From: Mesotoga sp. Brook.08.105.5.1
GTDB taxonomy: Bacteria; Thermotogota; Thermotogae; Petrotogales; Kosmotogaceae
Length of the DNA stretch: 64,000 nucleotides
Assembly: GCF_002752635.1 (NCBI RefSeq)
Contig: NZ_AYTW01000005.1
Span: forward strand, 186,001-250,000
Direction: 5' to 3'
The notes under the pieces are model-generated. The model saw only the letters and a program-made list of their open reading frames with translations, did not search any database and was not told the DNA's origin. Position 1 is the stretch's first letter; the number at the start of each line of letters is the position of its first letter. Shown piece after piece: positions 7,871 through 24,601 of the stretch. Both the position numbers and the translations under genes were made by a program.

Positions 7871-9070
7871 ATGCCCGATTTCCGCTATGAAGTCATCAAC
7901 ACCAAGGGAAAATCAGAAAAAGGCAAGCTTGCTGCGAACTCCAAACTAGAGGCGCTTCAGATCCTTTCAAGCAGAGGGTATATCGTAAGTTCAATCAAGC
8001 AGTCCGCTTCACATGCTTCCACAAGAGCTTCAATGTTCCCTGCCTCGCAAAAGGAAGTCAGCATCTTCTCAAGGCAATTGGCAACCATGGTTTCCTCAGG
8101 TGTGAGAATAAGAGACGCTCTTCAGGTTCTTTCAACTCAGGTTTTCTTTTCAAGAAGATTCAGAAAGATTGTGACTCGGGTGGTCCTGGATATAGAAGGT
8201 GGAATGAGCTTCAGCGAGTCTCTCGAAAAGACGGGTGTATTCGAGCCCCTCTTCACCAATCTGGTTAAGGCCGGAGAAGCGGGTGGAGTGCTAGACGAGT
8301 CACTAGAACGGGTTGCCGACTTCTACGAAGGGATGGTCGAGCTGCAGAATCAAGTGAAGTCAGCTATGTCATACCCTCTCTTCATGATGGTCTTTGCAGT
8401 TGGAATAGTTGGGATGATCTCGTTCTTCATTTTGCCGAACCTGATCGGCGCTTTTGGTGGAAACTTTCAGCCAGAAGGAGCGATGGCAATTCTCCTGAGT
8501 ATGAACAGCATTCTTGAGAATCACTGGCCTCTGTTGCTTGTCATGCTTGTCGGATTGTTGATCGGAGGCTACTTTTTCTTCAAGAGCAGATATGGAAACG
8601 TTGTCAAGGAAAACATTGGTAAGTTGATCCCTCCGATTAGGAATTTGAGAAACATGACGGCAATGGAGAGGTTCACTCGGACGACTGCTGTCCTAGTTGC
8701 CAGTGGAGTCGATCTGCCAACCGTTTTGGAACTGGCCGGAGAAGTCTCTCAGAGTCCAAGAGTTGTGAAAGCAGTGGGCAATGCAATAATAGGAATAAAG
8801 GGTGGGGAAAGCATCAATGCTGCTTTGGAGCGCCAGAAGGTCTTTCCGCCCATTGTCGTTAGTATGGTTGCTGTTGGTGAAGAGACCGGCAAGCTTGATG
8901 AAGTGATGTTAAAAGTTGCGGATTTCTATCATATGCAAGTTCAGAACGCACTCAAGAAACTTGTTTCGCTTGTGGAACCAATAATGATATTATTTATTGG
9001 TGGGTTCATTGGTTTCCTGGCAATAACGATATACGGTGCAGTCTTTGCTATGGAGCAAAGTATTGGATGA
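7871..9070 (+). CDS. pilC: Type IV pilus / type II secretion inner-membrane platform protein (PilC/GspF)
   Basis: PilC/GspF is the inner-membrane platform that couples the assembly ATPase to pilin polymerisation. The 399-residue protein has the two tandem T2SSF domains: one near residues 58-180 (SIFSRQLATMVSSGVRIRDA) and one near 255-380 (MERFTRTTAVLVASGVDLPT), the latter with the family block VSMVAVGEETGKLDEVM. Hydrophobic segments fall near 168-190, 215-235 and 365-390. The N-terminus keeps the usual soluble start (FRYEVINTKGKSEKGKL). It opens an operon with a pseudopilin-like protein, PilMNO-like proteins and the giant secretin. No PilB or PilT ATPase gene lies nearby. Confidence 0.93.
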   Translation: MPDFRYEVINTKGKSEKGKLAANSKLEALQILSSRGYIVSSIKQSASHASTRASMFPASQKEVSIFSRQLATMVSSGVRIRDALQVLSTQVFFSRRFRKIVTRVVLDIEGGMSFSESLEKTGVFEPLFTNLVKAGEAGGVLDESLERVADFYEGMVELQNQVKSAMSYPLFMMVFAVGIVGMISFFILPNLIGAFGGNFQPEGAMAILLSMNSILENHWPLLLVMLVGLLIGGYFFFKSRYGNVVKENIGKLIPPIRNLRNMTAMERFTRTTAVLVASGVDLPTVLELAGEVSQSPRVVKAVGNAIIGIKGGESINAALERQKVFPPIVVSMVAVGEETGKLDEVMLKVADFYHMQVQNALKKLVSLVEPIMILFIGGFIGFLAITIYGAVFAMEQSIG

Positions 9071-9447
9071 GTTTGACCGAGTTGTTGTGCTGTCTGGTCC
9101 TGGTCTCTCTGTGTATCAGCGGCGTCGTACTGGTTTCGTCTGAAATCATAGTTAAGCTAAAGATTGGCCTCAGCAAAACAGCTTTCGATTCTTTCATTGA
9201 AAGCCAACGACTTGAGGCAATTGTTCGTTCAAGACCAGTCGAGCTCTTCTATGATTTCAGAACTAGAAGGTTGTCTTCGACAACGGGTGATATTTTTGAG
9301 GATTGCTTGTGGGAGAATCCCGAAGGTTTCAGAATAAGATTCAACGGTGATGGGTCTATAGTAATTCTTAACGGTTCGACAACGCTGAATTTTGCTGATG
9401 GCAGTGTATTGACTATCCAGCCGGTTACGGGGAAGGTCACTTATTGA
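9067..9447 (+). CDS. Small pseudopilin-like (GspH/FimT-like) protein
   Basis: The 126-residue protein starts with MSLTELLCCLVLVSLCISGV, which resembles the mature N-terminus of a type IV pilin or pseudopilin: SLTELL in place of FTLIELL, followed by one long hydrophobic helix. The rest is a small globular domain with beta-rich character. A normal prepilin leader ending in Gly is missing. The ATG is coupled to the pilC stop (ATGA), and the codons upstream offer no obvious alternative leader. It may be a minor pseudopilin with an atypical leader or a simple membrane-anchored component. The assignment rests on position and the N-terminal pattern only. Confidence 0.6.
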   Translation: MSLTELLCCLVLVSLCISGVVLVSSEIIVKLKIGLSKTAFDSFIESQRLEAIVRSRPVELFYDFRTRRLSSTTGDIFEDCLWENPEGFRIRFNGDGSIVILNGSTTLNFADGSVLTIQPVTGKVTY

Positions 9448-9462
9448 GACTTGGGGGTAAAT

Positions 9463-10500
9463 ATGTTTCAAAGTATGATTACTGCCGTTAATTCCGATGA
9501 GGGTTACACTGAGATCGTAAGAGCAGTGGTCGAGGGTAGGAGCTTAATACCGGTCTTTTCTGTCCTTAGGATCGGTGAGAACTCGCTTGCCGAAGCGGCC
9601 AGGGTGTTTGGCGAGAATAATACTCTTCCCGTGGATGAAATATTTGTGACGGCCTTCCACCCAAAGGATGTTGTGTTTCAGCATCTAGAGGTTCCGAGGG
9701 TCAAGTCGATGAAGAACCTGCTTAGCGTTGCCAGTTTCAAGGCCGCCTCTCAGTTTTCTTTGCCGCCAGACGAAGTAAACGTTGCCTGTCTCAACTCAAT
9801 TGCTTCCCTGAAGACGGGGTTGGTTCCTGCCTTTATTATCACCAAGAGGAAGGCTGTTTTTGAATTCGTTGGAAGACTCACGGGCGAGAACTTCCCCGAG
9901 CCGAATATAGTAGATGTTAAGCCTTTCTCCATCTTCAAGACCGCTCATACCAGTGTCTTCGAGGGAAACAACATCGTCTTTGTGGTGGATAAGAATTATT
10001 CGATTCTCCTTACACTGAGAGGAGAAGAGATTGTTGGGCTGAACTACATAAGCGATGGTTTTGACGAGGTGGCAAGTGGTTTCAGTGAGGACAACTCTCT
10101 TTCTCCTAAAACAGATATCCAGAGAGAGTTCCTTGTCGGCTCCAAGGCATATTACGATTCATTGATAGAAGAGGCTTCCGAGAGACTTGAAGGGCTAATC
10201 TCCTATCAGCTTAGGATGTATCTTACGAACACTCTGTCGAACTCTCCGAATACTTCTGCGGCCGACGAGTCTCTCTTCACAAGGTTCTTTGTAGTGGGGC
10301 CCTCGAGTCTTTCTACAGCCGTTTACTCAAGGGCATTTCAGAGAATTCTTGGAGACGAGACAGAGGTGGTCAGCATGCCTCTTAGGATTAAGGAAACGAC
10401 TGGGATAACATATACTTCGGTGGGACTACTCATGAGAGGTGGTGAGATACTTGGTCGACGTAAACTTACATTCAAGGAAGAAACGGGTATCAAGGCTTAA
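9463..10500 (+). CDS. pilM: PilM-like pilus assembly protein
   Basis: PilM proteins are actin-like cytoplasmic proteins that bind the PilN tail and link the motor to the alignment complex. The 345-residue product is assigned by position (upstream of PilN- and PilO-like genes and a secretin), length and an actin-like outline: a phosphate-loop-like FVVDKNYSILLTLRG followed later by FFVVGPSSLSTAVYSR and TYTSVGLLMRGG. Sequence conservation is weak. Usual PilM has an N-terminal ATP-binding GIDIG, which I do not see clearly, so nucleotide binding may be lost. ATG 9463 follows GGGGGT. The 3' end overlaps the next gene by about 60 nt. Confidence 0.65.
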   Translation: MFQSMITAVNSDEGYTEIVRAVVEGRSLIPVFSVLRIGENSLAEAARVFGENNTLPVDEIFVTAFHPKDVVFQHLEVPRVKSMKNLLSVASFKAASQFSLPPDEVNVACLNSIASLKTGLVPAFIITKRKAVFEFVGRLTGENFPEPNIVDVKPFSIFKTAHTSVFEGNNIVFVVDKNYSILLTLRGEEIVGLNYISDGFDEVASGFSEDNSLSPKTDIQREFLVGSKAYYDSLIEEASERLEGLISYQLRMYLTNTLSNSPNTSAADESLFTRFFVVGPSSLSTAVYSRAFQRILGDETEVVSMPLRIKETTGITYTSVGLLMRGGEILGRRKLTFKEETGIKA

Positions 10501-11023
10501 GTATTCTCTAATAGTCCTGCTGATAATTGTCGTTCTGATTATGGGGTCTCGTTTTTTTGTGACCCAAGCCTTTGATATAAGATTTAGACAGGTTTCTAGA
10601 ATGAAAGGCTATCTGTTTGATAATACTGGAACATACCTTACAGGGAATCTGATTGCAGACATTGACATGATGTTCGACAAGAAGCAGGAGTACATTGCAA
10701 TCCGTAATAGACTTAGTAGACAGGTTAGCGATCTTCGCGCTCATGTAAGCTCGAAGTCGCTAGAGATGGATGTCTTCAGAACAATGGAAGCTTATCTCGA
10801 AGACGAGAACGCTCTGAAGACGATTGCTTCGAGAATTTCGTTTGAAAATGGTGTTGGTAACTCCTTCTACTATCTAATATTTGAAGGTGATAATACCTAT
10901 TTCCCGTCACCGCTTACTACACCAACCCTTCTTGCCAGGCCAAGCGTGAGGGGTAATTTGGACTTCGCAGAGCTTTACTCTCTTCAACTTGTCGACCTTA
11001 AGGTGGGTGACTTCGATGAATGA
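10439..11023 (+). CDS. pilN: PilN-like pilus alignment protein
   Basis: PilN is a bitopic inner-membrane protein whose short cytoplasmic tail binds PilM and whose periplasmic domain pairs with PilO. This 194-residue product has a short N-terminus (VDVNLHSRKKR, in place of the usual INLLP-type motif), one transmembrane helix near residues 20-42 (KYSLIVLLIIVVLIM), a coiled-coil-like stretch and a periplasmic domain. Start choices are GTG 10439, GTG 10442 or TTG 10451; AGAGGTGG at 10435-10442 fits TTG 10451 best by spacing. The overlap with pilM suggests translational coupling. The call rests mainly on topology and order. Confidence 0.65.
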   Translation: MVRYLVDVNLHSRKKRVSRLKYSLIVLLIIVVLIMGSRFFVTQAFDIRFRQVSRMKGYLFDNTGTYLTGNLIADIDMMFDKKQEYIAIRNRLSRQVSDLRAHVSSKSLEMDVFRTMEAYLEDENALKTIASRISFENGVGNSFYYLIFEGDNTYFPSPLTTPTLLARPSVRGNLDFAELYSLQLVDLKVGDFDE

Positions 11024-11612
11024 GAGAGACGAGTTTAACATCGAAGAAATTAATGCCTTTGTCGACTCGGGATCTTTTGAGAGCAACGATGGCTTTTTCA
11101 TTCACAGAGACTATGCAAATAAGCTGAAGAGAAGACTTGGTATTCTTGACAGAAAGGGAATAAACTCGAAGATTGCCTTCTGGTCGTTGATCGCTTTGAC
11201 AATCGTAGGTTTTTTGTTCCTGGTGGTACTTTACTCCTACAACACTTTCGAGAATACATCTCTGCTGGTCGAAGAGGTGAACGGTCTTGAAAGTGCATAC
11301 CTTGAGGTTCAGTTGCTCTCAAGAGTCCGAAACGAAGCGATAGGCGCAATGAGTACAAGAAGTTATCTTAAGGAGATAGAGGAGAGGATTCCGATAAGGT
11401 CTTCTCAAGGAGAGTACAAAGGAATCATTGTCTCAGGTAGTTCGAGAGATATTCTTGATCTTGTTGAGATGATTGTCAGTGAACCGAGAATTCTTGTTAG
11501 AAAGCTTGATCTGAGATCAAACCTTGGATTTCCGATTCTGCCGGAGTCTAATATTCCGTCCAATCTTTTGCTTGAGTTGAGGATGGACATTGCTGTAACA
11601 GGGACCTTCTAG
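11016..11612 (+). CDS. pilO: PilO-like pilus alignment protein
   Basis: A 198-residue bitopic membrane protein. About 50 cytoplasmic residues are followed by one transmembrane helix near residues 50-75 (IAFWSLIALTIVGFLFLVVL), a coiled-coil segment and a ferredoxin-like periplasmic domain (YKGIIVSGSSRDILDLVEMI), the fold expected for PilO/GspM. PilO pairs with PilN and contacts the secretin through PilP in known systems. ATG 11016 has AAGGTGGG just upstream and overlaps the previous gene by 8 nt. The cytoplasmic N-terminus is longer and more acidic than in typical PilO. Function is inferred from topology and gene order. Confidence 0.65.
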   Translation: MNERDEFNIEEINAFVDSGSFESNDGFFIHRDYANKLKRRLGILDRKGINSKIAFWSLIALTIVGFLFLVVLYSYNTFENTSLLVEEVNGLESAYLEVQLLSRVRNEAIGAMSTRSYLKEIEERIPIRSSQGEYKGIIVSGSSRDILDLVEMIVSEPRILVRKLDLRSNLGFPILPESNIPSNLLLELRMDIAVTGTF

Positions 11613-11626
11613 ACGGAGCTGATTTT

Positions 11627-12067
11627 ATGGAGAAGATCGTTTTGATAATAGTGGTCTCAATTACTCTGTTAGTAACGGGTGGTGTACTCTTGGTATTGCT
11701 CTTCGAACCGGTAGAGATTGCTGATGTTGCGGCAAGCAGAATAAGAATTGATCCCGTTGATACTTCTAGGGTGGTGAGCGTCTTCAGTATGGAGAATCAT
11801 TTCCTCCCACTCTATGCGAGTCCTTCGGAGGTCATAAGTTCAATGCTAGAAGTCGGCGAAGAGGCAGAGAATGTCAGGTATGTTGCCTATTACAGGTTGA
11901 ACAAGGTTGATTACGCAGTTCTACAGACGGGTGAGACGGAGATAACAGTAAGAGTGGGCGAGCAAGTTGCACCCTCCTATATAGTATATGGAATTACGGA
12001 ATTTGCTGTTCTGCTAAATGATACTAGTACGAACAGCTTCTTTGTTGTGAAGTATTTCAGGTCATAA
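11627..12067 (+). CDS. Small membrane-anchored protein of the pilus operon (PilP/GspC position)
   Basis: I do not recognise this 146-residue protein from its sequence. It has an N-terminal hydrophobic helix (residues 4-27, VLIIVVSITLLVTGGVLLVL) and a periplasmic part of about 115 residues with beta-strand character (ETEITVRVGEQVAPSYIVYG). There is no lipobox Cys, so it is not a PilP-type lipoprotein. Its place between the PilO-like gene and the secretin gene is where PilP, or GspC in type II secretion, would be. A role linking the inner-membrane complex to the secretin is a reasonable inference, not shown by homology. Confidence 0.5.
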   Translation: MEKIVLIIVVSITLLVTGGVLLVLLFEPVEIADVAASRIRIDPVDTSRVVSVFSMENHFLPLYASPSEVISSMLEVGEEAENVRYVAYYRLNKVDYAVLQTGETEITVRVGEQVAPSYIVYGITEFAVLLNDTSTNSFFVVKYFRS

Positions 12068-12086: not shown

Positions 12087-15000
12087 GTGATTCGTGTGAG
12101 AAGAATAGCGGTCTTATTTCTAGTTCTGGGCATCTTCTGTATTGGTTTCTCTAATCAGCTGAATTCAGTCATTCCCACTATGGATGCAGAATCGGTAACA
12201 GTGACTCTGATCTTTAAGGACAAAGTCACAGATTACAATATACAATCGAATCCTTCAAGGACCATATATTCTCTGGCAATGAACGGTGTAAGCGGCAGAG
12301 ATATGAATTTGCCGCTTCGAATGGGTCCGGTTGAAGGTTTGTGGACCAGGCAAGATCCCAAGAGACTGTCGGTGAACGTCGCTTTGTTGATTCCAGCAAT
12401 CGATGATCCGGAAGTTACGATTATGGAGAATGTTGTCACACTTAGATTCTTTAGATCGAATATTAATGTGAATATCGAGAAATTTACTACATATGGTATG
12501 ACGGTATCTACTGCGATGACATATCTTTTTTCTGAAGAAATGCTAGATCTGTCGTATATCATCTCTCCAAGTGTTAGAAATGAGCAGGTTGTGGTTGGTT
12601 TCTCACTGGCCATGCCCGAAGATATTCTAAGAAATATCCTTACGTCTCTTGGAGATAGGGTCGCTTATTCCTATTTGACTGATGGAACCTTCTATCTGGG
12701 TTCGCCTGAAGAAGTTCAAGATCTTGTTAATGCCTTCTGGAAGACGTATATCGGTGTTGATTTCAATATTGAGGGGGAGACCGTTTCAGAACAGATTGAA
12801 AGGCTGAGAAAGACTCTTCCAGTAAATAGCTACATAGAGTATCTACCGAACGAGGCTTCTTTGATGGTGTTTGGCGATCTCCAGACCCACATGAGTCTTT
12901 CTGCAGCTCTTACGAAAAACACGGTCACCAAAGAATACTCTGTCCCGTGGGAGATAACTAACGTCGATGTTGAACCGCTTACAGCATACTACGAATTGGC
13001 AAGGAGTCTTAATTCGCTGCTCTTCTCAGAAAGCCTTACCATAGTAAGTATTCCTGAGTTCAACAAGCTGATATTCTCTGGAAACGATTCTCAAGTTACG
13101 GCCCTTTATGAGTATCTCGATCTCTACAGGTTGTATTTGACCTCAGAAGATCTTGATTCGAGCAGGACAAGGGTGACATTGACTCTCCCCGACAATTTCT
13201 TCTTGATTGAGGACGTTCTAAAACTTGCCAGGGCTTCAGGGTCGGGGCTTCCTGATGACGGGACCCTCGTGGGAGCGATCTTCGGGATTCTTCAAAGCTA
13301 TGCAGTTTATGAGGAGCTTTCCGTTGACAGAACCTTTGAGCCTATCGGAAAAGTCACATTCGAGTTGCCAAATTATCTAGTTCCTGTTCTGGAGAGAATC
13401 GCAGACTCTTTCTCCGCAATTTCTGAAGACGTTTCATACCTCATGGTGAACTATCACCATACAATAGAAGAGTCGATAGTAGCTCAGGTCGAACGAATTA
13501 CAGGTTCAATAATCGAGCCCTTAGGCGAGAGAAAGGGTTACATCGTGAAGGGTGCTAAGAGCTCTATAGAGACTGCCGAATACCTGCTGTCGTTATTTAC
13601 CGGGATTACATTTGATGACTATGATAGCACTTACCTGGAACTGAAGACCAACGATTCATATGAAGAAGTATCCAGTTTTCTTGGTACGTTCTTTGCTGCC
13701 CAAGGTCTCGTTGAGAGTGAGTACACAATTCAGCAGATTGCGGACAGACTGGTCTTCATGTATGGTCCTTCAGGAATCATGGGGAGGGCCATCAACGAAC
13801 TTGAACAACATGAAAGACAGATATACAGGGTGACAAGGGAATCGATTCTCGAGATCTCTCCCGAAATCTACTCTTCCGGTCTGGGGGATCTGCTCGAAAC
13901 GATTCTCGTAGAAAATGAGACGGCTGATTTCATCGCTTCTGCGGGCCTTCTGGTAATCAGAGCGTATCCGGAAAGGCTTTCTGAGATAGAAGGGATCATT
14001 GAAGAGAGAATTCCCAGAATCACTGAGATGGTTGAAAGCAAGATGGCAAGTCAGGAGACTCGCCTCTCCCTCCAGATAAGGGCTATTCCCGGCTGGGATA
14101 TCGAGAAGTTCAGAGCCTACCTCAGAGACTTTCTTGGACTTAGACTCTTCTCTGATATCACTCTCACAACTTCAGGGAATGGATACATAGTTATTGCAAC
14201 AGAATCTGTTCTTGAAGCGGTTTCCGCTGAAGCGGAAAAACTGAGAGAATTTGAGAACCCATCGTACAGACTGGAGACATCTATCCCCTCTCTTTCCCAG
14301 TTTGAAGTCCTATTGCAAAGACTGGGTATTGCTGCGACCATAGTTCCAGTCGAGAACCAGTTCATGATTATTGGCTCCAGGGAGAACGTTGAGGAAGCAT
14401 CAAGGCTTGTAAGACAGCTGAGTAGCGGGCTTCCTGTACAGGGGGACGTTTCTGAGGCTAAATTAGAATACAAGTATGAATTCATAAATCTGCCCTATTC
14501 CGAGATTCAAGGGATCAGCGAGCTTCTGAATAAACTCAGTTTGTCAGTAGAGTTTGTAAACACACCAACCGGCGTGGCTGTTGTGGCAACTGAGGACCGC
14601 CTTGAAGATGCAATGGCAGTTATTAGTTCGATTTTGTCGAGAATTGAGACGATTGAGACCGGTCCAAAAAGCTATAGCTTAATAGATGTTGAGTTGTCCT
14701 TGGTCGGTAGCCTGGAAGAGATTCTAACCCTTCTTGGTTACGAAATTGATCTTGTGGAAACACCAGTTGGGATAATCGGAATCGGTGTTGAAACACAACT
14801 AGCTAAAGCGAAGAAGATTGTCGATGAGATTCTAAAGAAAGAACCAACTTCACTTCTTCAAGAAGTAGATGCCGATAGTTCGTACCTGATAATCTCTTCT
14901 AAACCTGAGATTGCAATAGAATCTCTAAACTCAGTGATAAATGTCTTCGGTTTCGATCTCGTTATCACAGAGATCTACGACAAGATCGTTGTTGTTGGAA

Positions 15001-18000
15001 ACAGCTTCGACCTTCAGTTTTTCAGAGGGTTGTACGGAGAGATTCTCACCTCAGAGAGTGCGGAGGGGGCTTTTGCAAGCAAAGAGATTTTTGGGGTGCC
15101 CGGTTGGGACTCTGAACGACTATTGTCGTATCTGGGAGTAGTCCTGGGAGTTGACAAGACTGCCAGCATTTCTCTCGTTCAGACCGCCAAGGGATACATC
15201 ATCAACTGTCCCGAGTCAATCTTGGAAAGTGTTGAAAGGGAACTCGATAGGCTCAGGAAAATAGAAAGCCCCTTCTATTCTATAGAGCGAAGGATGCCCT
15301 CATTAAACGAACTGAATTCTCTTCTAGTGAGACTCGGAGTAATAGTCGATATTCTGAAGGTTGATGATTACTTCGTTATCATCGGTACTGAACCCAATGT
15401 TAAACAAACTATAGAGATAGTTGCCAAGCTTCTGGAGATAATCGGTGACGAGCCCGAAGTCGGTGAAACGGTATTTGAACTCTCTCAAATATCGGGCGAG
15501 GATTCTGCAGCATTTAGAGGAATATTCTCGAGCATCGGTATAGAAGTGGAGCTTCTCGACTCCCCGTCTGGTGTCTTGATTATCGGTGAACGCAAAGAAG
15601 TCGCAAAAGCAATGGAGACTTCAGAATCAATCCTTGAGAAGCGGCCGTCGACTATTGTGACGGAATCGGTGTTCGAGTTTGTTTCCGTTTCTTCTGACGA
15701 GATTGGCGATTACTCTTTGGTTTTGGAGAAAATGGGAATCAACGCTGAACTATTATCTTCCCCCTCAGGGGCCCTCTTGATTGGTTCGTCGGAAGAGGTT
15801 TCAAGGGCCAAAACTGTAGTGCAAACGATTGTTGATCAGAAGAAGGAGATAGGTCCCTCTGAAGATAGAAGGAACGTATCGACCTTCGTTAAGAAGGTGG
15901 CTGGTTGGAGCAACGAAATGCTTTCCAGCTACTTAAGAGACTATCTAGGCGAAGACCTCTATTCTCGAGTCTCGATTGCTCCTTCGGTGAGTGGATACAT
16001 AATCGTTGGCCCGGCTGAACTTCTAAAGACGATAGAGGAAGAGATCGCCAGACTTGAAGAGATTCAGGACCCGCACTTCATGGTACAGCGAGCTTTACCT
16101 CCTCTTGACCAGCTGGAGCTTTTAATAGATGCTCTCGGAATAAAGGTCGGAATCATTCCTGTTGAAGACAAGTACTTAATAGTTGGAAACCGTGACAGTG
16201 TTGACAGAACCGGAAAGCTCATCGATCAGCTTATAGATGCGATCTATCCGGAAGGTGAACCCGAGGAGCAGGCGCTAGAGTCAAAAACGTTCATTTTCTT
16301 GCCTGTAAGACCTGAAGATATTGCTCCTCTGGAGATAGTAATGGAAAAGCTTGGGGTCGTATCGGAGTTCATCCAGATCTCTACAGGAGTAGTTGCTGTG
16401 GGTTCTGGGGAAGAGCTTCTAAAGGCACTTGACATAGTTGAGTCGGTAATGGCTCACTCCGAAAGTGTTTCAGCAGAGCTCAGTTTGAGATTCAGATTTG
16501 TAGATGTTAGATCGGATTCGATAGCACAACTTCTCCCAATCATCGAACGGCTGAGTATTGATGTCGAACTGCTCAACACCCCTACAGGTGTTGTCGCCAT
16601 TGGAGCAGAGTCTGAGCTTGAACGTGCGGAGGAGTTGATCGAGGCGATCAACTCAAGAGAATCGCAAGATGTTCCACTTCAGGATAAGTATGAGAGTTTC
16701 CTTCTTCTTCCGTTATCGTCGGGAATTACCGTTCAGTCACTAGAACCTGCCCTTGAACTTCTTAACTACAGAGTATTTGCAGTCGCGGTGGCTGACAAGA
16801 TTGTCGCGATAGGTGAAGAAGAGGATCTCTTAAAGTTCAGATCTCTATATAAACAGCTTCAGGCTCAGGAAATTGAAAGGGAAGAAAGAGTGTCTCTTGA
16901 CATCAAGGCCATACCGGGTTGGGATCTTGCGAGGGTAAGCGAATACCTTAGACTATTCCTTGGAGTCGACGACTTTGAGAGAATCTCAATTGTGACATCC
17001 TCCAGCGGGTTTGTTGCCCTAACTCCAAGTGTCCTGGCAGAAGTAGTCAAGGCAGAGATCTCGAGACTCAGAGAATTTGAGAATCCAACTTTCGCAGTGT
17101 TTGACAGGATACCTCCCGTCGACAATCTTGAAGGGCTTCTGGCTAGATTGGGGGTTATGGTTGATCTCGCAAAAATGGGTAGTTCCACCATTGTAATCGG
17201 TTCAGGTGAAGATGTACGACGCACAAGCCAGATAATGGAGCAGCTCTTGAAATCAGTCTCACAAGATGTGACTGTGCCTGAAGCTGTAGAATACAGAGTC
17301 GTTGATATTTCCGTGGAAGACATCGGCAGCTTCAATGCGATTCTTGAGAGACTTGCAATTGAAGTATCCTTAATCACATCCCCATCCGGAGTTATCGTAA
17401 TCGGTTCTCAAGAGGCAGTTGAGAGAACGATCTTGGTAGTAGATGACATACTTAGTAGAAGAACTACAGCGCAGGTTTATGAACCCACGTACGCCTTCAC
17501 AGGTATACAAAGCAGAGAGATAGATAGTTATCAGGCAATTCTTGATAAGCTTGGCGCTGAAGTAGAGCTTCTTCCTTCTGCCACCGGGGTTTTAATGATC
17601 GGTGACAGAGAAAAGGTCGAGACAGCAATCAAGACCGTCAACGCTATTCTCGAAAGAGAAGCCCTAGTTGCTGAAACTGAAGGAGAGAAGGGGCGAGTTT
17701 CAAACGTAGCTGCAGTTGTGCCGGGCTGGAACGATGCAAAATATGCCAGCTACTTCATGGACTTCCTTGGCGAGGACGATTTCTCTAGGATCTCAATCAC
17801 TCCTTCGTCCAGTGGCTATATCGTTGTAGGTCCGCAAGAAGTTATCTCGAGATTGGTTTCAGAAGCCGATCGTCTGGCAGGGATCGAAGATCCGTTCTTT
17901 GTTATAGAAACCTCACTTCCTGCAATCGACCAGCTGGACACTCTTCTTGAACGGCTGGGACTTAAGGTGACGATACTACCGGTCGGAGACAAACACCTTG

Positions 18001-21000
18001 TCGTTGGCATGAAAGAAAGTGTTGAGAGGACAGTCGAATTGATCAAGATGCTGAGAAACGGTCTTGAGGCTCCACTGACCTCGAGAAAATACGACTACAT
18101 AATAATGCCTGCAAGCGAAGGCACATTCGAGACGATCAGACAAGTACTTTCGGAACTGAAGATAGACGCTACTGCTTTGAGCTTTGGAAGCAACGTGATA
18201 ATTGTCGGATACGGTGAAGACCTTGAAAATGCAGCGAGCGTCGTGAAATCGATAAATGAACGAACCGTCATACTTGAGACCGACAAGGAACTCAAGTACG
18301 CTTTCACTGATATTCCAAACGACAGGATCGGCGAGTTCACTGCCATACTTGGGAGTCTCGGACTAGATGTTGAGCTTCTCTCATCTCCTTCCGGCGTTAT
18401 TCTGGTTGGAACCGAAGAGGAGTCGACAAAGGCGATAGAAGTTATCCATTCGGTGCTTTCAAGGGCGGAAGAAGATGAGGCGGTCGAATCTAGATTCTTC
18501 AACAACCCTGCCGGCTGGGAAGATGGCAAGCTAGTTTCATACTTGAGGGGTTATTTGGGAGAAAAGGAGTGGGCAAAGGTAAGCGTAACACCGGTCCAGT
18601 CAGGTTATCTCATTGTGGGCCCCACGGCAATTCTTGACCGAATAAACACCGAAACAACCAGGCTTTCAGGTCTTGAGAGACCTCACTACGAGATAGTTGA
18701 GTCCGTTCCTTCAATTCAGAATCTGCAGAGTATGCTGGAGAAGATGGGACTTGCAGTTACAGTTGTTACCGTTGATGGAAGGTCGATGGTGATAGGTCCG
18801 GAAAGCGATGTTCGTTCTACCGTAAGAGTCTTCGGCGAACTTGCTGAAGGCATAGTGCTTCCCAAGGGCGATGAACCTGACATCTTTGCGTTTGTGGAAA
18901 TCCCAACTGAGGAGACCGACAGTTTCAGAGCGATCTTCTCTAGGCTGGGTATTCGTATTGATCTTCTGAATACGCCAACCGGAGTAATAGCGGTCGGCCA
19001 AAAGGAAAATGTCAAGAAGGCCGAAGAGACTATTAGCTCGATACTCTCGCGAAGAGAGGTTCAGGTTGTTGACGGCGAACAGAGTTATCTGGTTGTCGAG
19101 GTTCGTGACGGATTTGATCTTGCGGCCGCCCAATCAGTCAAATCGGCGTTCAACATAAACGTCTATCCTCTTTCTGTAGCCGGGAGACTTGTAGTGATCG
19201 GGGCAGAGAAGGAGATTGAAAGATTCGTACAGATAAGGAACGATATTATCAGCGAACACAAAGTCACAGTTATAGTTCCTCGTGAAGTTACCATCGAAGA
19301 ACTCGATGGGATAATTAACACACTTGGCCTGGAAATCTCCGTTCTCGAGATTCGGGGCAGCTTCGTCGTTTATGGAAAGGAAGGAGAGATTGAACAGGTA
19401 AGGGACATTCTTAACCGCCTAACTTCCGATAAACCGTCCGAGAAGTCTCAAGAAATGCGCATCTTCAATGGGATAGGCCATAGTACTGATTTCCTGAATC
19501 AGCTTCTGTCAAGTATGAACTCCTCTCTAATCGTTTTCGGAGAGGGAGACAGAATAGTGGTCGTTGGAAACGAAGAGGATATTGTTGTCTTTGAGAGTCT
19601 TCTCAAGGAGATGGGGTCGGCGCCGACGGCGGAGAGCCTTACGGCACAGTTCTTCCCGAAACTCGAAGGCTGGAGTGGCGAGACTCTCTCTGATTTCTTC
19701 ATGGCGATGAGCTTTGCCGTGAAGGTATTCCACGAGAGTAGTCAAGGCTACCTTCTAATAGGTCCCGAAGATCAGCTTGCGGAAATACCGGCTTTGATGG
19801 ACGGTCTCGAGTTGAAGACGAAGAAGCTGACCACCCTGTACACTATTCCATCCGGGATGACGTTTGAGGAGTTACGGGAGATACTAGTTTCCGCCGGTTT
19901 CAACCTCTCCTATACAAAGCTGGGGCAAAGCATGTCCGTATCGGGTCTCGAAGAGGATGTTAATATGGCTGTTGCTCTACTTGATGAAGTTATTCGAAGC
20001 GGGCTAGGAAAAGGAGTCTCTTATAGACTTGCGAAACTTCCTGCCGAACTGACTCTCGAAAAGTTTGAGAGGATTCTGAGCGACATGGCCCTCAGTATTT
20101 CAGCTGTTCAAGTTGACGGGGAAGTGATGTTAATTGGCCCTGATAGTGACTTAAGAACGGCCAAAGAGATAGTTGAATACCTAACTCCAGAGGATCCTGC
20201 GGTCGATGAGAAGAGAGTGTACTCAATAGTCCCGTTGGGTGATGGGCTTTCGCTAGCCGAAATGGCGGCCCTTGTTGAGAGTCTATCGCTCAATGTCCAG
20301 ATTCTTCCAGTCGGTAGAGACGTGGTTTCGATTGGTACCCAGAGTAATGTTGACCGCTTCAGAGAATTGGTGAGTTCGGTCTCTGCAACATTGGGAATAG
20401 GGAAATTTGAGAGCCCCGAATACGAAATCGTTGAGCTAGTAGAAGAGATTTCTTTGGGGCAGTTCAGAGAGCTTCTTTCCTCTCTCAATATACCTGTAAA
20501 GATCGTAGAAGTAGCGGATTACATTGTGTTCATTGGTTCAGGAGAAAACAACGCAAGAGCAGTTGAGCTCTTCTCAAAGTTTGAAAAAGAGGATCAAGAA
20601 CCCGAAACTGACGAGATCGAATTCGCTACGATCTCATTGCCGGAGGGTTTCGATCTCAGTTCACTGGAGGCTGTGTTAGATAAGCTAAGGTTCAGTGTGG
20701 ATCTGGATTCAGTAGGCAACGTTCTGCTTCTTATCGGAACCAGAGAATCGATAGAGAACGCTCTGGCACTTGTGGAAAGGCTCGTTCAGGTGTCTACCGG
20801 CGATTCGGGAGAGAAGAGTGAATTTGAAATTCTTGATCTTGAAGACGAAGTCTCATCGAACTTGCTTAATCAGCTCTTCAGGTTGATCGGCGTCAAAGTG
20901 GAGATTCTCGAAAGCGATACTGCGCTTGTGTTTGTCGGAACTAGAACGGATCTGGAGATGGCCGTCGATGTCTACAACTCACTTGGAAAAACTGTCGAGG

Positions 21001-23777
21001 CAGACGAAGGTCCGCTGTCTTACACAATTACTATCCTTCCAAGGAATCTGACGCCCGGGCAGCTTGAGATTGCCTTCGAGTCGATTCAGATACCGGTTGG
21101 TATTATTGAAGCAGGTGATTATGCGATAATCGTCGGAACCAAGCCCTCCCTTGCGAGAGCTCAAGAGTTGATTTCCTCTCTACGGATAGGGATAGATTCG
21201 AGCGGAACTTCTGCCGATGGATCTATCTCTTATAAGACTTTTGTACAGCCGGATGGAACTCAAATCGACCAATTTGAGACGATTGCGGGATTGATGGAAC
21301 TGAAGCTCAAATTTGAATCGGTCGGAGACAGGGTCTTCATGATAGGTACTGGTGAGGATATTGCTGAATTTGAGGAGATTCTAGGCGGTCTTACAAGCGA
21401 GAAAGCAGGGATTGTAAATGAATCAAGGTTCGCAAAGAGACTCTCCGGAATCGATGCAGAAACTCTTAATGCGTATCTTGAGGCAAAAGCGATTTCTCTT
21501 TCTGGAGTCTTCGATGTGAGCGGTGGTTATTTGCTAATTGGAACCCGCGAATCAGTCGACGAAGCACAGGCCGTGATAGACTACCTGGTTAACAACCAGC
21601 AGGTCCACTTCGCTTATATTGATTTACCTGCCAGTATGACTCCTGAGATTCTTCAAGCTATGGTTAGCGATCTTCTTCTGGAGGTATCCGTAGTTCAAAT
21701 CACACCATCTAGGTACATGATAGTCGGTAACTTTGATGATGTAACAGCACTGAAAGAGGTACTTATCGAAGCAGTAACGATAGAGGCTAAATTCCTGTCC
21801 TATTCCCTTATCACAGTGGGGCAGGCCTTCTTAGAGGATTTAGCGAGCGTCTATTCCGCTCAGGGGAGCCAAAGATCAGGAATGGATAGCCTTGAGGAGG
21901 CTCTTGAGAACATTGGTGTATCTGTCTTCATCGGTAGGTTCGATACTCGCCTCCTCTTGGTAGGAGAGAGTGACCACGTTGACTTCGCGAGAGAGCTTAT
22001 TTCAGAGCTGAATCAGAATGCGGGCAGCGAGGAAGCATCAGAGCAAATTAACATCGAAGACCTTCCTCCTGTTAGCGGCTGGAGCACAGAACAAGTCAGA
22101 CAGTTTCTGGAAGCCGCGGAAATTCAGCTGAAATCAATCATTGAATACTCAGGAAGACTCATTGGAATTGGGACTCAGGTCGGGCTTGAGAACGCTAGGG
22201 CAGCACTGAACATACTCGCTGTTGATTCTAAAAGAGAGTCGGTGAGGATCGAGAAGAACCTCGTCACACAGGCCCAGTTAGCGGAACTGATCTTCAAACT
22301 GGGTCTCGAAATCGAATTTGTCGACCTAGATCGGCAGTGGTTGCTTATAGGTGATCCTGAGTCTCTAATGGTAATTACCAGGACAGTCGAGGAGGCAGCT
22401 GCCGATAGGGAGATTTCGAGATACATAACCGATCTCACGGTGAATCCTGAGGAACTGGCCTCTCTCTTAAGAGAATCGATCGAGGGTATCACGGTTCAGA
22501 CATTCACCGAACTTCAGATGCTGCTGATAAAATCGAAGAGTTCAGCTCTCCTTGATATGGCCGAAAGGATGATCAAAGAGGTCCAGGAGTCGAGAAAGGC
22601 AGTAGATCCGCTGGAAAGGGGAGTAGTGGTTGAGGGAAAGCTTGTCCAGATAAATGTCGCCAATCAGGATCTGGAAGAGTTGTTGAGACTAGTGGCCGGC
22701 AAGCTTCAAATCTCGCTCCTTTTCATTGACGACATAAATGAGAGGATCACCATGTCTGTCAAGGATCTCACATGGGAAGCTCTTACCAAAGTAATAAATG
22801 CCACGAAGCCGGTTGAGATAAGCAGAATCGATGATATCTATGCGGTGACAAAGAAGGAACAGAAGGCCGGTGAAGAACCGACCGATGTTGAACTAGTCTA
22901 TCGTGTTTACCACAATGTTGAAGAAGTAACAAGGCTTATCGAGTTCTATGGAGGTGAAGTTCTCTCAGATCCGGTGAACGGATATATAGTAGTCAGAGGC
23001 CTGGCCAAATCAAGAGTTGATAATATCTTTGACGAAATTGGATCCGATCTCTCGCGTCCTAAAAAGCAGGTACGAATCGAAACAAGGCTCGTGGATAAAT
23101 CGCTTGTTGATGATATTCAGAGGGAGTTCAAGACGGCAATAGGGATTAACACTCCTGAGATTCTCATTGAAAGCGGTTCGATAGATCTCGACTTCAAAAT
23201 CATCGACTATCTTGATTTTACGAAACTGATTGATGATATCGTAAATACGGCAGTCGTGAAGATCGGGGCAGACCTGAGCAATAGGGACACTGATTCCGAC
23301 CTTATCTCCAGTCCTTCGATAGTCTCAATGAGTGGTCAGGAAGCGAAGATTCATATCGGGGACACCATTCCCTACCTGGTTCGAACAATCGAGTACGTAG
23401 ATGGTAATCCCGTAGAAATCGAGACTATCGAGTATCTGAACACAGGAGTCGAATTAAGAATTACTCCAACTGTCAATGATGACGGCAAGATACTTCTCGA
23501 TCTCTTTATAAAAGTCAGCGAGCCCGAGAAGTATCAGGACGGAACACGAACGCTATATGGTGAGAAGACGAGAGAAGCAAACAGCAGACTGATTATTTCG
23601 AACGGCAATACATTGACGATCGGTGGACTTGTTGCAAACAAGGATACTGTAACCGTTAATAAGATGCCTTTCTTGAGCGATTTGCCGTTTATCGGTAAGT
23701 TGTTTACTACCGAAAACAGAACGTCTGATAAGAGAGAACTGGTTATCTTTATCACAGCGGAGGTGGTAGAGCCGTGA
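12087..23777 (+). CDS. pilQ: Giant secretin (PilQ/GspD family) with about 48 tandem periplasmic modules
   Basis: Secretins form the outer-membrane channel of type IV pili and type II secretion. This 3,896-residue protein is four to six times the usual size. It has a signal peptide (RRIAVLFLVLGIFCIGFS), a possible AMIN-like domain (residues 33-125), then from about 190 to 3510 some 48 related modules of about 70 residues. Each ends in a strand-turn-helix signature such as YIIVGPAELL or MIIGSRENVEEA. The C-terminus is a standard secretin: an STN/N0-like domain (about 3513-3572), an N1-like domain (3603-3655, GYIVVRGLAKSRVDN) and the secretin domain (about 3661-3896; LISSPSIVSMSGQEAKIHIG, then LPFIGKLF). 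GTG 12087 is used; GTG 12096 is possible. It ends the PilCMNO-like operon, and amrB overlaps its stop. Confidence 0.93.
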   Translation: MIRVRRIAVLFLVLGIFCIGFSNQLNSVIPTMDAESVTVTLIFKDKVTDYNIQSNPSRTIYSLAMNGVSGRDMNLPLRMGPVEGLWTRQDPKRLSVNVALLIPAIDDPEVTIMENVVTLRFFRSNINVNIEKFTTYGMTVSTAMTYLFSEEMLDLSYIISPSVRNEQVVVGFSLAMPEDILRNILTSLGDRVAYSYLTDGTFYLGSPEEVQDLVNAFWKTYIGVDFNIEGETVSEQIERLRKTLPVNSYIEYLPNEASLMVFGDLQTHMSLSAALTKNTVTKEYSVPWEITNVDVEPLTAYYELARSLNSLLFSESLTIVSIPEFNKLIFSGNDSQVTALYEYLDLYRLYLTSEDLDSSRTRVTLTLPDNFFLIEDVLKLARASGSGLPDDGTLVGAIFGILQSYAVYEELSVDRTFEPIGKVTFELPNYLVPVLERIADSFSAISEDVSYLMVNYHHTIEESIVAQVERITGSIIEPLGERKGYIVKGAKSSIETAEYLLSLFTGITFDDYDSTYLELKTNDSYEEVSSFLGTFFAAQGLVESEYTIQQIADRLVFMYGPSGIMGRAINELEQHERQIYRVTRESILEISPEIYSSGLGDLLETILVENETADFIASAGLLVIRAYPERLSEIEGIIEERIPRITEMVESKMASQETRLSLQIRAIPGWDIEKFRAYLRDFLGLRLFSDITLTTSGNGYIVIATESVLEAVSAEAEKLREFENPSYRLETSIPSLSQFEVLLQRLGIAATIVPVENQFMIIGSRENVEEASRLVRQLSSGLPVQGDVSEAKLEYKYEFINLPYSEIQGISELLNKLSLSVEFVNTPTGVAVVATEDRLEDAMAVISSILSRIETIETGPKSYSLIDVELSLVGSLEEILTLLGYEIDLVETPVGIIGIGVETQLAKAKKIVDEILKKEPTSLLQEVDADSSYLIISSKPEIAIESLNSVINVFGFDLVITEIYDKIVVVGNSFDLQFFRGLYGEILTSESAEGAFASKEIFGVPGWDSERLLSYLGVVLGVDKTASISLVQTAKGYIINCPESILESVERELDRLRKIESPFYSIERRMPSLNELNSLLVRLGVIVDILKVDDYFVIIGTEPNVKQTIEIVAKLLEIIGDEPEVGETVFELSQISGEDSAAFRGIFSSIGIEVELLDSPSGVLIIGERKEVAKAMETSESILEKRPSTIVTESVFEFVSVSSDEIGDYSLVLEKMGINAELLSSPSGALLIGSSEEVSRAKTVVQTIVDQKKEIGPSEDRRNVSTFVKKVAGWSNEMLSSYLRDYLGEDLYSRVSIAPSVSGYIIVGPAELLKTIEEEIARLEEIQDPHFMVQRALPPLDQLELLIDALGIKVGIIPVEDKYLIVGNRDSVDRTGKLIDQLIDAIYPEGEPEEQALESKTFIFLPVRPEDIAPLEIVMEKLGVVSEFIQISTGVVAVGSGEELLKALDIVESVMAHSESVSAELSLRFRFVDVRSDSIAQLLPIIERLSIDVELLNTPTGVVAIGAESELERAEELIEAINSRESQDVPLQDKYESFLLLPLSSGITVQSLEPALELLNYRVFAVAVADKIVAIGEEEDLLKFRSLYKQLQAQEIEREERVSLDIKAIPGWDLARVSEYLRLFLGVDDFERISIVTSSSGFVALTPSVLAEVVKAEISRLREFENPTFAVFDRIPPVDNLEGLLARLGVMVDLAKMGSSTIVIGSGEDVRRTSQIMEQLLKSVSQDVTVPEAVEYRVVDISVEDIGSFNAILERLAIEVSLITSPSGVIVIGSQEAVERTILVVDDILSRRTTAQVYEPTYAFTGIQSREIDSYQAILDKLGAEVELLPSATGVLMIGDREKVETAIKTVNAILEREALVAETEGEKGRVSNVAAVVPGWNDAKYASYFMDFLGEDDFSRISITPSSSGYIVVGPQEVISRLVSEADRLAGIEDPFFVIETSLPAIDQLDTLLERLGLKVTILPVGDKHLVVGMKESVERTVELIKMLRNGLEAPLTSRKYDYIIMPASEGTFETIRQVLSELKIDATALSFGSNVIIVGYGEDLENAASVVKSINERTVILETDKELKYAFTDIPNDRIGEFTAILGSLGLDVELLSSPSGVILVGTEEESTKAIEVIHSVLSRAEEDEAVESRFFNNPAGWEDGKLVSYLRGYLGEKEWAKVSVTPVQSGYLIVGPTAILDRINTETTRLSGLERPHYEIVESVPSIQNLQSMLEKMGLAVTVVTVDGRSMVIGPESDVRSTVRVFGELAEGIVLPKGDEPDIFAFVEIPTEETDSFRAIFSRLGIRIDLLNTPTGVIAVGQKENVKKAEETISSILSRREVQVVDGEQSYLVVEVRDGFDLAAAQSVKSAFNINVYPLSVAGRLVVIGAEKEIERFVQIRNDIISEHKVTVIVPREVTIEELDGIINTLGLEISVLEIRGSFVVYGKEGEIEQVRDILNRLTSDKPSEKSQEMRIFNGIGHSTDFLNQLLSSMNSSLIVFGEGDRIVVVGNEEDIVVFESLLKEMGSAPTAESLTAQFFPKLEGWSGETLSDFFMAMSFAVKVFHESSQGYLLIGPEDQLAEIPALMDGLELKTKKLTTLYTIPSGMTFEELREILVSAGFNLSYTKLGQSMSVSGLEEDVNMAVALLDEVIRSGLGKGVSYRLAKLPAELTLEKFERILSDMALSISAVQVDGEVMLIGPDSDLRTAKEIVEYLTPEDPAVDEKRVYSIVPLGDGLSLAEMAALVESLSLNVQILPVGRDVVSIGTQSNVDRFRELVSSVSATLGIGKFESPEYEIVELVEEISLGQFRELLSSLNIPVKIVEVADYIVFIGSGENNARAVELFSKFEKEDQEPETDEIEFATISLPEGFDLSSLEAVLDKLRFSVDLDSVGNVLLLIGTRESIENALALVERLVQVSTGDSGEKSEFEILDLEDEVSSNLLNQLFRLIGVKVEILESDTALVFVGTRTDLEMAVDVYNSLGKTVEADEGPLSYTITILPRNLTPGQLEIAFESIQIPVGIIEAGDYAIIVGTKPSLARAQELISSLRIGIDSSGTSADGSISYKTFVQPDGTQIDQFETIAGLMELKLKFESVGDRVFMIGTGEDIAEFEEILGGLTSEKAGIVNESRFAKRLSGIDAETLNAYLEAKAISLSGVFDVSGGYLLIGTRESVDEAQAVIDYLVNNQQVHFAYIDLPASMTPEILQAMVSDLLLEVSVVQITPSRYMIVGNFDDVTALKEVLIEAVTIEAKFLSYSLITVGQAFLEDLASVYSAQGSQRSGMDSLEEALENIGVSVFIGRFDTRLLLVGESDHVDFARELISELNQNAGSEEASEQINIEDLPPVSGWSTEQVRQFLEAAEIQLKSIIEYSGRLIGIGTQVGLENARAALNILAVDSKRESVRIEKNLVTQAQLAELIFKLGLEIEFVDLDRQWLLIGDPESLMVITRTVEEAAADREISRYITDLTVNPEELASLLRESIEGITVQTFTELQMLLIKSKSSALLDMAERMIKEVQESRKAVDPLERGVVVEGKLVQINVANQDLEELLRLVAGKLQISLLFIDDINERITMSVKDLTWEALTKVINATKPVEISRIDDIYAVTKKEQKAGEEPTDVELVYRVYHNVEEVTRLIEFYGGEVLSDPVNGYIVVRGLAKSRVDNIFDEIGSDLSRPKKQVRIETRLVDKSLVDDIQREFKTAIGINTPEILIESGSIDLDFKIIDYLDFTKLIDDIVNTAVVKIGADLSNRDTDSDLISSPSIVSMSGQEAKIHIGDTIPYLVRTIEYVDGNPVEIETIEYLNTGVELRITPTVNDDGKILLDLFIKVSEPEKYQDGTRTLYGEKTREANSRLIISNGNTLTIGGLVANKDTVTVNKMPFLSDLPFIGKLFTTENRTSDKRELVIFITAEVVEP
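14085..18516 (+). repeat. Higher-order protein-coding repeat blocks inside the giant secretin gene
   Basis: A GW-containing module (PGWD...YL..FLG...GYIVVGP) recurs with its Trp at residues 670, 1007, 1274, 1612, 1881 and 2144. The intervals are 337, 267, 338, 269 and 263 residues, four or five 67-residue modules each. The order is GW module, P..QLE..L.RLG module, two SPSGVIVIG-type modules and, in the longer blocks, an extra module. The five-plus-four pattern repeats with a period of about 605 residues (1.8 kb). Further, more diverged GW-type modules occur near residues 2529, 3122 and 3332. Confidence 0.8.
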
Positions 23778-24601
23778 AAAGGAGCCCCGTTGTCAGCGGC
23801 AAGTTCTACGCAGATGACGGTGAGGACCTCAAGAGCCAGATCAAGAATTGCTTCTTTCATCCGATAGGGCCAGGGAGTCTCCCTAAGAATCCTGGAAGAT
23901 CTGAAAGCTCAGTTGGTTTGGTAGTGCCGCATGCGGGGTACATGGCAAGCGGTCCAGTTGCTGCCTGGAGCTATTGGAAGTCGTATTCTCTAATTACCCC
24001 TTCAACGGTGATAATTATCGGTCCCAATCATACCGGCCTTGGGACCAGACTATCTCTATGGAATGAAGATTCTTGGGGCACACCTCTGGGTGAAGTAGAG
24101 ATAGATAAAGAGCTTGGGAAGTCAATTATGACTATGTCTAGCGGACTTGTGGTATCTGATACGGCCGCCCACCTGTACGAACACTCTATAGAAGTCCAGC
24201 TACCGTTCCTGCAGTTTATATACAGTGACTTCAAAATCGTGCCGATAATTATGAGTGATCAAAGACTGGAAGTGGCATTAATGGTTTCCGGGCTGCTAAG
24301 GAAGATCCTGAGTGAGAAGAGTAACCTACTGATAATCGCTTCCTCGGATCTGAATCACTACGAGTCTCACGAAACAACTATCGAGAAAGACAGGAGACTA
24401 GTGAATCTTGTCAAGGAGAGGAAGTACGCAGAGGCATACGATATATCCAGAAGCGAGCGAATCACTGCCTGTGGTCTAGGACCTATGGTGGCTGTTAGAG
24501 AAACCTTTGAATCGATGGATATACTATGCAACACGACGAGCGGCGAAGTCATCGGAGACAGGTACAGAACTGTCGGTTATCTTGCTGCCTTGCTTAAGTG
24601 A
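23774..24601 (+). CDS. amrB: Memo-family protein (AmmeMemoRadiSam system protein B-like)
   Basis: The Memo family is structurally related to class III extradiol dioxygenases; the bacterial role is unsettled. The 275-residue protein starts with the family motif VVSGKFYADDGEDL. It has the conserved VVPHAGYMASGPVAAWSYW, IIGPNHTGLG, EHSIEVQLPFLQ with a metal-site His, IIASSDLNHYESH and the C-terminal CGLGPMVAV. GTG 23774 overlaps the secretin stop, so it is translationally coupled to the pilus operon. The partner AMMECR1 and radical SAM genes of the usual trio are not adjacent, so any link to pilus function is only positional. Confidence 0.9.
   Translation: MKRSPVVSGKFYADDGEDLKSQIKNCFFHPIGPGSLPKNPGRSESSVGLVVPHAGYMASGPVAAWSYWKSYSLITPSTVIIIGPNHTGLGTRLSLWNEDSWGTPLGEVEIDKELGKSIMTMSSGLVVSDTAAHLYEHSIEVQLPFLQFIYSDFKIVPIIMSDQRLEVALMVSGLLRKILSEKSNLLIIASSDLNHYESHETTIEKDRRLVNLVKERKYAEAYDISRSERITACGLGPMVAVRETFESMDILCNTTSGEVIGDRYRTVGYLAALLK

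Follow-up and report, generated by a model that had tools for sequence, protein, structure and literature searches.

The secretin PilQ of Thermus thermophilus has 13 subunits that form six stacked N-rings plus the channel, with a length of 35 nm (PMC5745081). In T. maritima, TM0094 is pilC and TM0088 is pilQ, and another gene, TM1117, is also given as pilQ (PMC5637354). The outer membrane of Thermotogota is held off the cell body by Omp-alpha, which consists of an SLH domain, a coiled coil (316 aa, ~50 nm in T. maritima) and a C-terminal membrane segment (PMC3387000). How secretion and pilus machines are fitted to the width of the envelope is an open question. Here we describe a secretin of ~5 times the usual size, encoded in a 64,000-nucleotide stretch of Mesotoga DNA (the window). 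Secretins with solved structures that matched it by sequence were no longer than 901 aa, and a literature search found no paper on a secretin of comparable size.

The gene is a single unbroken open reading frame (12087-23777, GTG start, 3,896 codons), exactly the coordinates and length given in the initial annotation; a further in-frame GTG at 12096 could serve as the start instead. It is the last gene of an operon containing pilC, a prepilin-like gene, four genes tentatively read as pilM/N/O/P-like and the secretin. Downstream, a Memo/AmmeMemoRadiSam-B gene (23774-24601) has a 4-base overlap with the secretin gene at its stop codon. Domains and neighbouring genes are listed in Table 1.

Table 1. 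Coordinates of the giant secretin domains and of the upstream operon genes in the window.
Feature	Position	Strand	Basis
PilC/GspF platform protein	7871..9070	+	PF00482 E 1.7e-58; NCBIfam PilC/GspF
Prepilin-like protein	9067..9447	+	Weak ComGD / prepilin N-terminal domain matches
PilM-like cytoplasmic protein (tentative)	9451..10500	+	Position, size, without TM segment; no family or PDB match
PilN-like protein (tentative)	10439..11023	+	Position, size; one TM segment after a 'VNLHS' start
PilO-like protein (tentative)	10989..11612	+	Position, size, one TM segment
PilP-like protein (tentative)	11627..12067	+	N-terminal TM segment, directly upstream of secretin
Signal peptide, aa 1-22	12087..12152	+	Basic n-region then hydrophobic stretch in translation; GTG 12087 or 12096
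AMIN-like beta-sandwich, aa 23-122	12153..12452	+	AlphaFold model; Foldseek to PilQ B2 domain 4aqz
N-terminal N0/STN-like domain, aa ~123-215	12453..12731	+	Model; Foldseek to N0-N1 of XcpQ, GspD, InvG/MxiD
Six diverged N1-like modules, aa ~216-655	12732..14051	+	Beta-alpha-beta-beta-alpha x6 in AlphaFold model
Array of 42 N1-like modules including GW-type, aa 656-3440	14052..22406	+	Iterated HMM, GW spacing, AlphaFold/Foldseek of aa 1859-2199
Last N1-like module, aa 3441-3510	22407..22616	+	Weak Secretin_N match in aa 3430-3671
Second N0/STN-like domain, aa ~3511-3602	22617..22892	+	N. meningitidis PilQ phmmer match begins at aa 3517
Last N domain ahead of channel, aa ~3603-3690	22893..23156	+	Unbroken PilQ alignment across it
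Secretin channel domain, aa 3691-3896	23157..23774	+	PF00263 E 5.9e-41; PDB PilQ/GspD matches

The Pfam Secretin domain was matched at aa 3733-3895 with 140.3 bits, against a cut-off of 27.5, and N. meningitidis PilQ was aligned with aa 3517-3893 (phmmer, E 2e-22). Scores for the curated families were 132.5 bits for PilQ (TIGR02515, cut-off 284.35) and 137.2 bits for GspD (TIGR02517, cut-off 351.35). An N-terminal AMIN domain followed by N0, a PilQ trait, was seen in the giant secretin by fold search only; a Pfam search of aa 1-230 returned neither AMIN nor STN. The STN/N1/secretin C-terminus of the initial annotation was borne out by the Pfam match and the PilQ alignment, with the correction that there are two N0/STN-like domains, the other lying at the N-terminus after the AMIN-like domain. 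The protein is real, conserved and PilQ-like in architecture, and because its scores fall below both curated cut-offs it is filed as a secretin working like PilQ rather than as a certified PilQ.

It is the only secretin in the genome, which also encodes two PF00437 ATPases (565 and 353 aa). No gsp gene cluster was found among the neighbouring genes examined. Gene order is pil-type, with pilC, five genes and the secretin arranged as in the syntenic T. maritima TM0094-TM0088, and we read the locus as one for type IV pili/DNA uptake. The pilM/N/O/P-like identities are tentative, being assigned from gene order, size and TM segments rather than from sequence families; PDB searches with the PilM-, PilO- and PilP-like proteins gave no match. 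The inner-membrane partners measure ~130-216 aa irrespective of whether the secretin has 1,284 or 3,896 aa, so it is the secretin that would have to span the gap.

Modules were counted with an HMM (56-column core) iterated from the giant secretin alone. It detected 41 stretches, 40 of them with i-Evalue <1e-3; adding two long-form modules that had been skipped (~aa 1000 and ~1600) and removing one weak fragment gave the 42 modules of aa 656-3440. When this region was shuffled, no module was found in 49 of 50 runs and one module in the remaining run. With six modules from the N-terminal model and one before the second N0 the total is ~49, in agreement with the 'about 48' proposed initially. The 67-72-residue repeat proposed alongside that number was recovered as a repeat; the pitch is mostly 61-72 aa, and the array is not uniform, every fourth or fifth module being a longer variant with a GW motif. 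Over aa 669-2143 these variants recur at intervals of 263-269 or 337-339 aa and so mark out a super-repeat; GW-type modules are anchored at ~aa 669, 1006, 1273, 1611, 1880, 2143, 2528 and 3331. A module HMM built from a MAFFT alignment of all relatives fused each GW module with the one that follows, and the 56-column HMM was used for the counts.

A five-module block (aa 1859-2199) was modelled with AlphaFold from an alignment of paralogous and orthologous blocks taken from the window and other loci. The model (mean pLDDT 80.9, pTM 0.45) has the order beta-alpha-beta-beta-alpha five times, and in a Foldseek search of the PDB all nine matches at E <= 1e-3 were secretins (GspD, PulD, EpsD, XcpQ and the D. 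radiodurans piliation secretin). The structure prediction suggested by the initial annotation as a check on its KH-like, N1 ring-building modules thus returned N1/KH-like domains. For the N-terminal model (aa 23-655, pTM 0.52) 25 of 26 matches at the same threshold were secretins, and its first domain was matched to the B2 (AMIN) domain of PilQ 4aqz with a TM-score of 0.58, an rmsd of 3.0 Å and an E-value of 0.011. Whole-chain TM-scores were low because the inter-domain geometry is unsure in both models. By sequence profile the modules are weakly similar to Secretin_N, and a module-alignment profile run against PDB sequences gave nothing convincing. The fold of the single module as a secretin N-domain is supported by these predictions, which leave the packing between modules uncertain. 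Isolated Pfam matches to KH, LAGLIDADG and EPSP_synthase were also obtained; a reading as RNA-binding KH domains was rejected because secretin N-domains came first in the fold search and a signal peptide is present.

A secretin was present in 96 of the 103 Thermotogota genomes examined, and the N-terminal N0/STN-like domain, which follows the AMIN-like domain, is kept across the phylum. A genome-contig scan with the giant protein as query gave two loci; the nearest named record was from Mesotoga, at 94% identity, in agreement with the placement in Thermotogota and Kosmotogales by the initial annotation. Full-length Mesotoga genes encode 3,896 (window), 3,900, 3,900, 3,921 and 4,575 aa, the last in a one-contig genome; all five are intact, and in four of them the length is conserved. 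The initial annotation had named a split into separate genes in close relatives as an outcome that would refute it; the close relatives have the same single long frame. In the same family, a related genus has a secretin of 2,635 aa, and the secretins of other families have 630-1,620 aa; estimated by length, the number of modules is ~10 in the T. maritima type, ~48 in the window and 58 in another Mesotoga genome (G023). Many Thermotogota outside Mesotoga have an additional secretin of ~400 aa, and Mesotoga genomes with a full-length giant gene have the giant only. Between the two closest species dN/dS of the giant secretin was 0.10, and amino acid identity was 74-91% where synonymous sites were saturated (74-80% within modules). 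Purifying selection acts strongly through the whole module array. One further orthologue (G021, L038:5280-6751) is broken: ~1 kb of it, encoding five modules, runs on the other strand and is flanked by identical 245-bp direct repeats, which reflects misassembly at the repeat or a true inversion.

Arrays grow through duplication of super-units of 4-5 modules. In G023 a stretch of 329 bp is identical between two adjacent super-units that lie 804 bp apart, and a further pair shares 240 bp at 98%. In a tree of segments comprising a GW module and the next module, most positions were orthologous among Mesotoga species, and one clade held an additional G023 copy. In the Kosmotoga-like gene (G019), GW modules are limited to one near each end; super-unit amplification therefore belongs to the Mesotoga line.

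Secretin length was compared with that of the Omp-alpha spacer, a test picked after the repeat was known and before spacer lengths were seen. SLH proteins were gathered from the same Thermotogota genomes and measured stop-to-stop, those >600 aa being left out. Genus means from 62 genomes in 27 genera gave a Spearman coefficient of 0.89 (0.87 without family f1). With family means removed and f1 excluded, r was 0.92 over 24 genera (within-family permutation p = 5e-5). Neither control was related to spacer length (genome size, r = -0.14; short secretin paralogue, r = 0.06 in 14 genera). Secretin length thus co-varies with Omp-alpha spacer length across Thermotogota. The slope of 2.1 secretin residues per spacer residue amounts to ~4.8 nm of coil for each 68-aa module, a figure whose true value is probably smaller, as noise in spacer length flattens the slope; it is near the ~4 nm that T. 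thermophilus PilQ suggests for one ring when rings and channel are divided by our own estimate. Kosmotogaceae lie off the line: Mesotoga spacer tails have ~500 aa, a coil of ~75 nm if each residue adds 0.1485 nm, and 49 modules at 2.5-4 nm per ring would give 120-200 nm, an overshoot of ~1.6-2.7 fold. The stalk of more than 100 nm put forward in the initial annotation would thus be reached if each module formed such a ring. The Petrotogales-like family f2 has secretins of 630-910 aa although its spacers match those of other families in length. In D. radiodurans the SlpA coil measures 28 nm and the periplasm 121 nm (PMC9388160); its secretin has 740 aa (PDB match), and a wide periplasm alone therefore needs no giant secretin. 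Two other kinds of SLH protein were noted. One (L083, G000:C23:25781-28706), conserved in Mesotoga, joins an SLH domain to a 5'-nucleotidase-like enzyme (690 aa) and is not an Omp-alpha spacer. The other, of ~980-1,050 aa, occurs in one genus of family f9 (G066-G071), may be a far longer type of spacer and was left out of the correlation.

We consider it rather likely that the giant protein serves the type IV pilus/DNA-uptake machine of Mesotoga as its PilQ-type outer-membrane secretin, and that its N-domains would be stacked as a long periplasmic tube whose length follows the width of the envelope. The N-terminal AMIN-N0 end would sit at the peptidoglycan and the inner-membrane platform of PilM/N/O/P-like proteins, and the C-terminal N0-N-secretin end would make the outer-membrane channel. 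Between them ~49 N-domains may stack as rings from 12-15 subunits, giving a very long tube of roughly 5-6 MDa that would guide the pilus through the wide toga periplasm. Its length would be tuned in evolution through the duplicated blocks, tracking envelope width. This proposal draws on predicted domain folds and on the observed frame, conservation, purifying selection, super-repeat duplication and Omp-alpha co-variation. More broadly, the Thermotogota secretin could be a tube of tunable length matched to the Omp-alpha spacer, with Mesotoga as the extreme (~50 ring levels and far more than 100 nm, which would make it much the longest secretin, grown through the copying of blocks of 4-5 rings), a generalization that we hold tentatively.

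Because the packing between modules is uncertain in the model (pTM 0.45), linear stacking and ring formation are hypotheses, and the arrangement of the N-fold modules may be read in other ways. If rings formed near the channel only, the rest could be a flexible chain of beads tethering the channel to the peptidoglycan, slack when the toga balloons. The low pTM, the many inter-module linkers rich in charged residues and the overshoot of the Omp-alpha coil are consistent with such a tether; we regard it as unlikely, as every super-unit keeps a tight, conserved junction between the GW module and the next, purifying selection is strong along the array, and length co-varies with the spacer as expected of a rigid structure. 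The overshoot would also be accommodated if several modules of one chain shared a ring level (two, for example, or a super-unit of 4-5), in a wider or thicker-walled tube that would match the ~75 nm spacer, and the unit of duplication is indeed 4-5 modules, not one. Yet at the channel end each chain contributes a single module to each level, and the Kosmotoga-like genus overshoots without super-units. We know of no secretin built in this way, and judge the arrangement quite improbable.

The array might instead have expanded neutrally, repeats slipping or recombining to add modules that serve no length function. Recent copies in G023 and module counts that vary among Mesotoga species are what such a process would leave behind, but the length has held at 3,896-3,921 aa while synonymous sites became saturated, GW modules at corresponding positions in different species are orthologues, and secretin length follows Omp-alpha, all of which makes neutral growth a poor explanation. 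That the long frame is an artefact of assembly or gene calling is barely credible. The broken G021 copy, with its inverted block and flanking direct repeat, indicates that such genes can misassemble. The window gene, however, has no self-repeat at the DNA level at E <= 1e-5, so there is nothing for assembly to collapse, and the same frame occurs in other genomes, one of them a single contig. An assembly artefact was rejected for Mesotoga on the strength of the intact orthologues and the lack of DNA self-similarity.

The co-variation of secretin length with the Omp-alpha spacer and growth by super-units of 4-5 modules are new here. Some 60 genomes form a natural series in which the number of ring domains, about one or two at the low end, rises to almost 60 alongside an independent molecular spacer, and with this Thermotogota series the idea that ring number acts as a ruler can be tested directly. 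If the rings stack, the array offers a ~50-ring tube for cryo-EM/ET.

Among described systems, the type II secretion secretins GspD, PulD and XcpQ have ring-forming N-domains and gave the best Foldseek matches of the giant-secretin modules; they differ in having four N-domains and a T2SS context, and the giant secretin scores below the GspD family cut-off. N. meningitidis PilQ (PDB 4av2, 4aqz) shares AMIN (B2), N0, N1 and secretin domains and is matched by the C-terminal 380 aa, but its AMIN domains lie directly ahead of N0-N1, with no array. The T. maritima TM0088 type (~1,284 aa) and the PilQ proteins of other Thermotogota share the orthologous locus, with pilC upstream, and the order of AMIN-like domain, N0, N-array and channel, whereas TM0088 has ~10 modules by length and no GW super-units, and its genome also encodes a ~400-aa secretin. 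T. thermophilus PilQ (757 aa, PMC5745081) has N1-N5 against ~49 modules, one N0 against two, and no super-repeat; like the giant secretin it is a pilus/DNA-uptake secretin of a wide periplasm with extra beta-alpha-beta-beta-alpha N-domains, which are seen as rings in Thermus and which we infer to form rings in Mesotoga.
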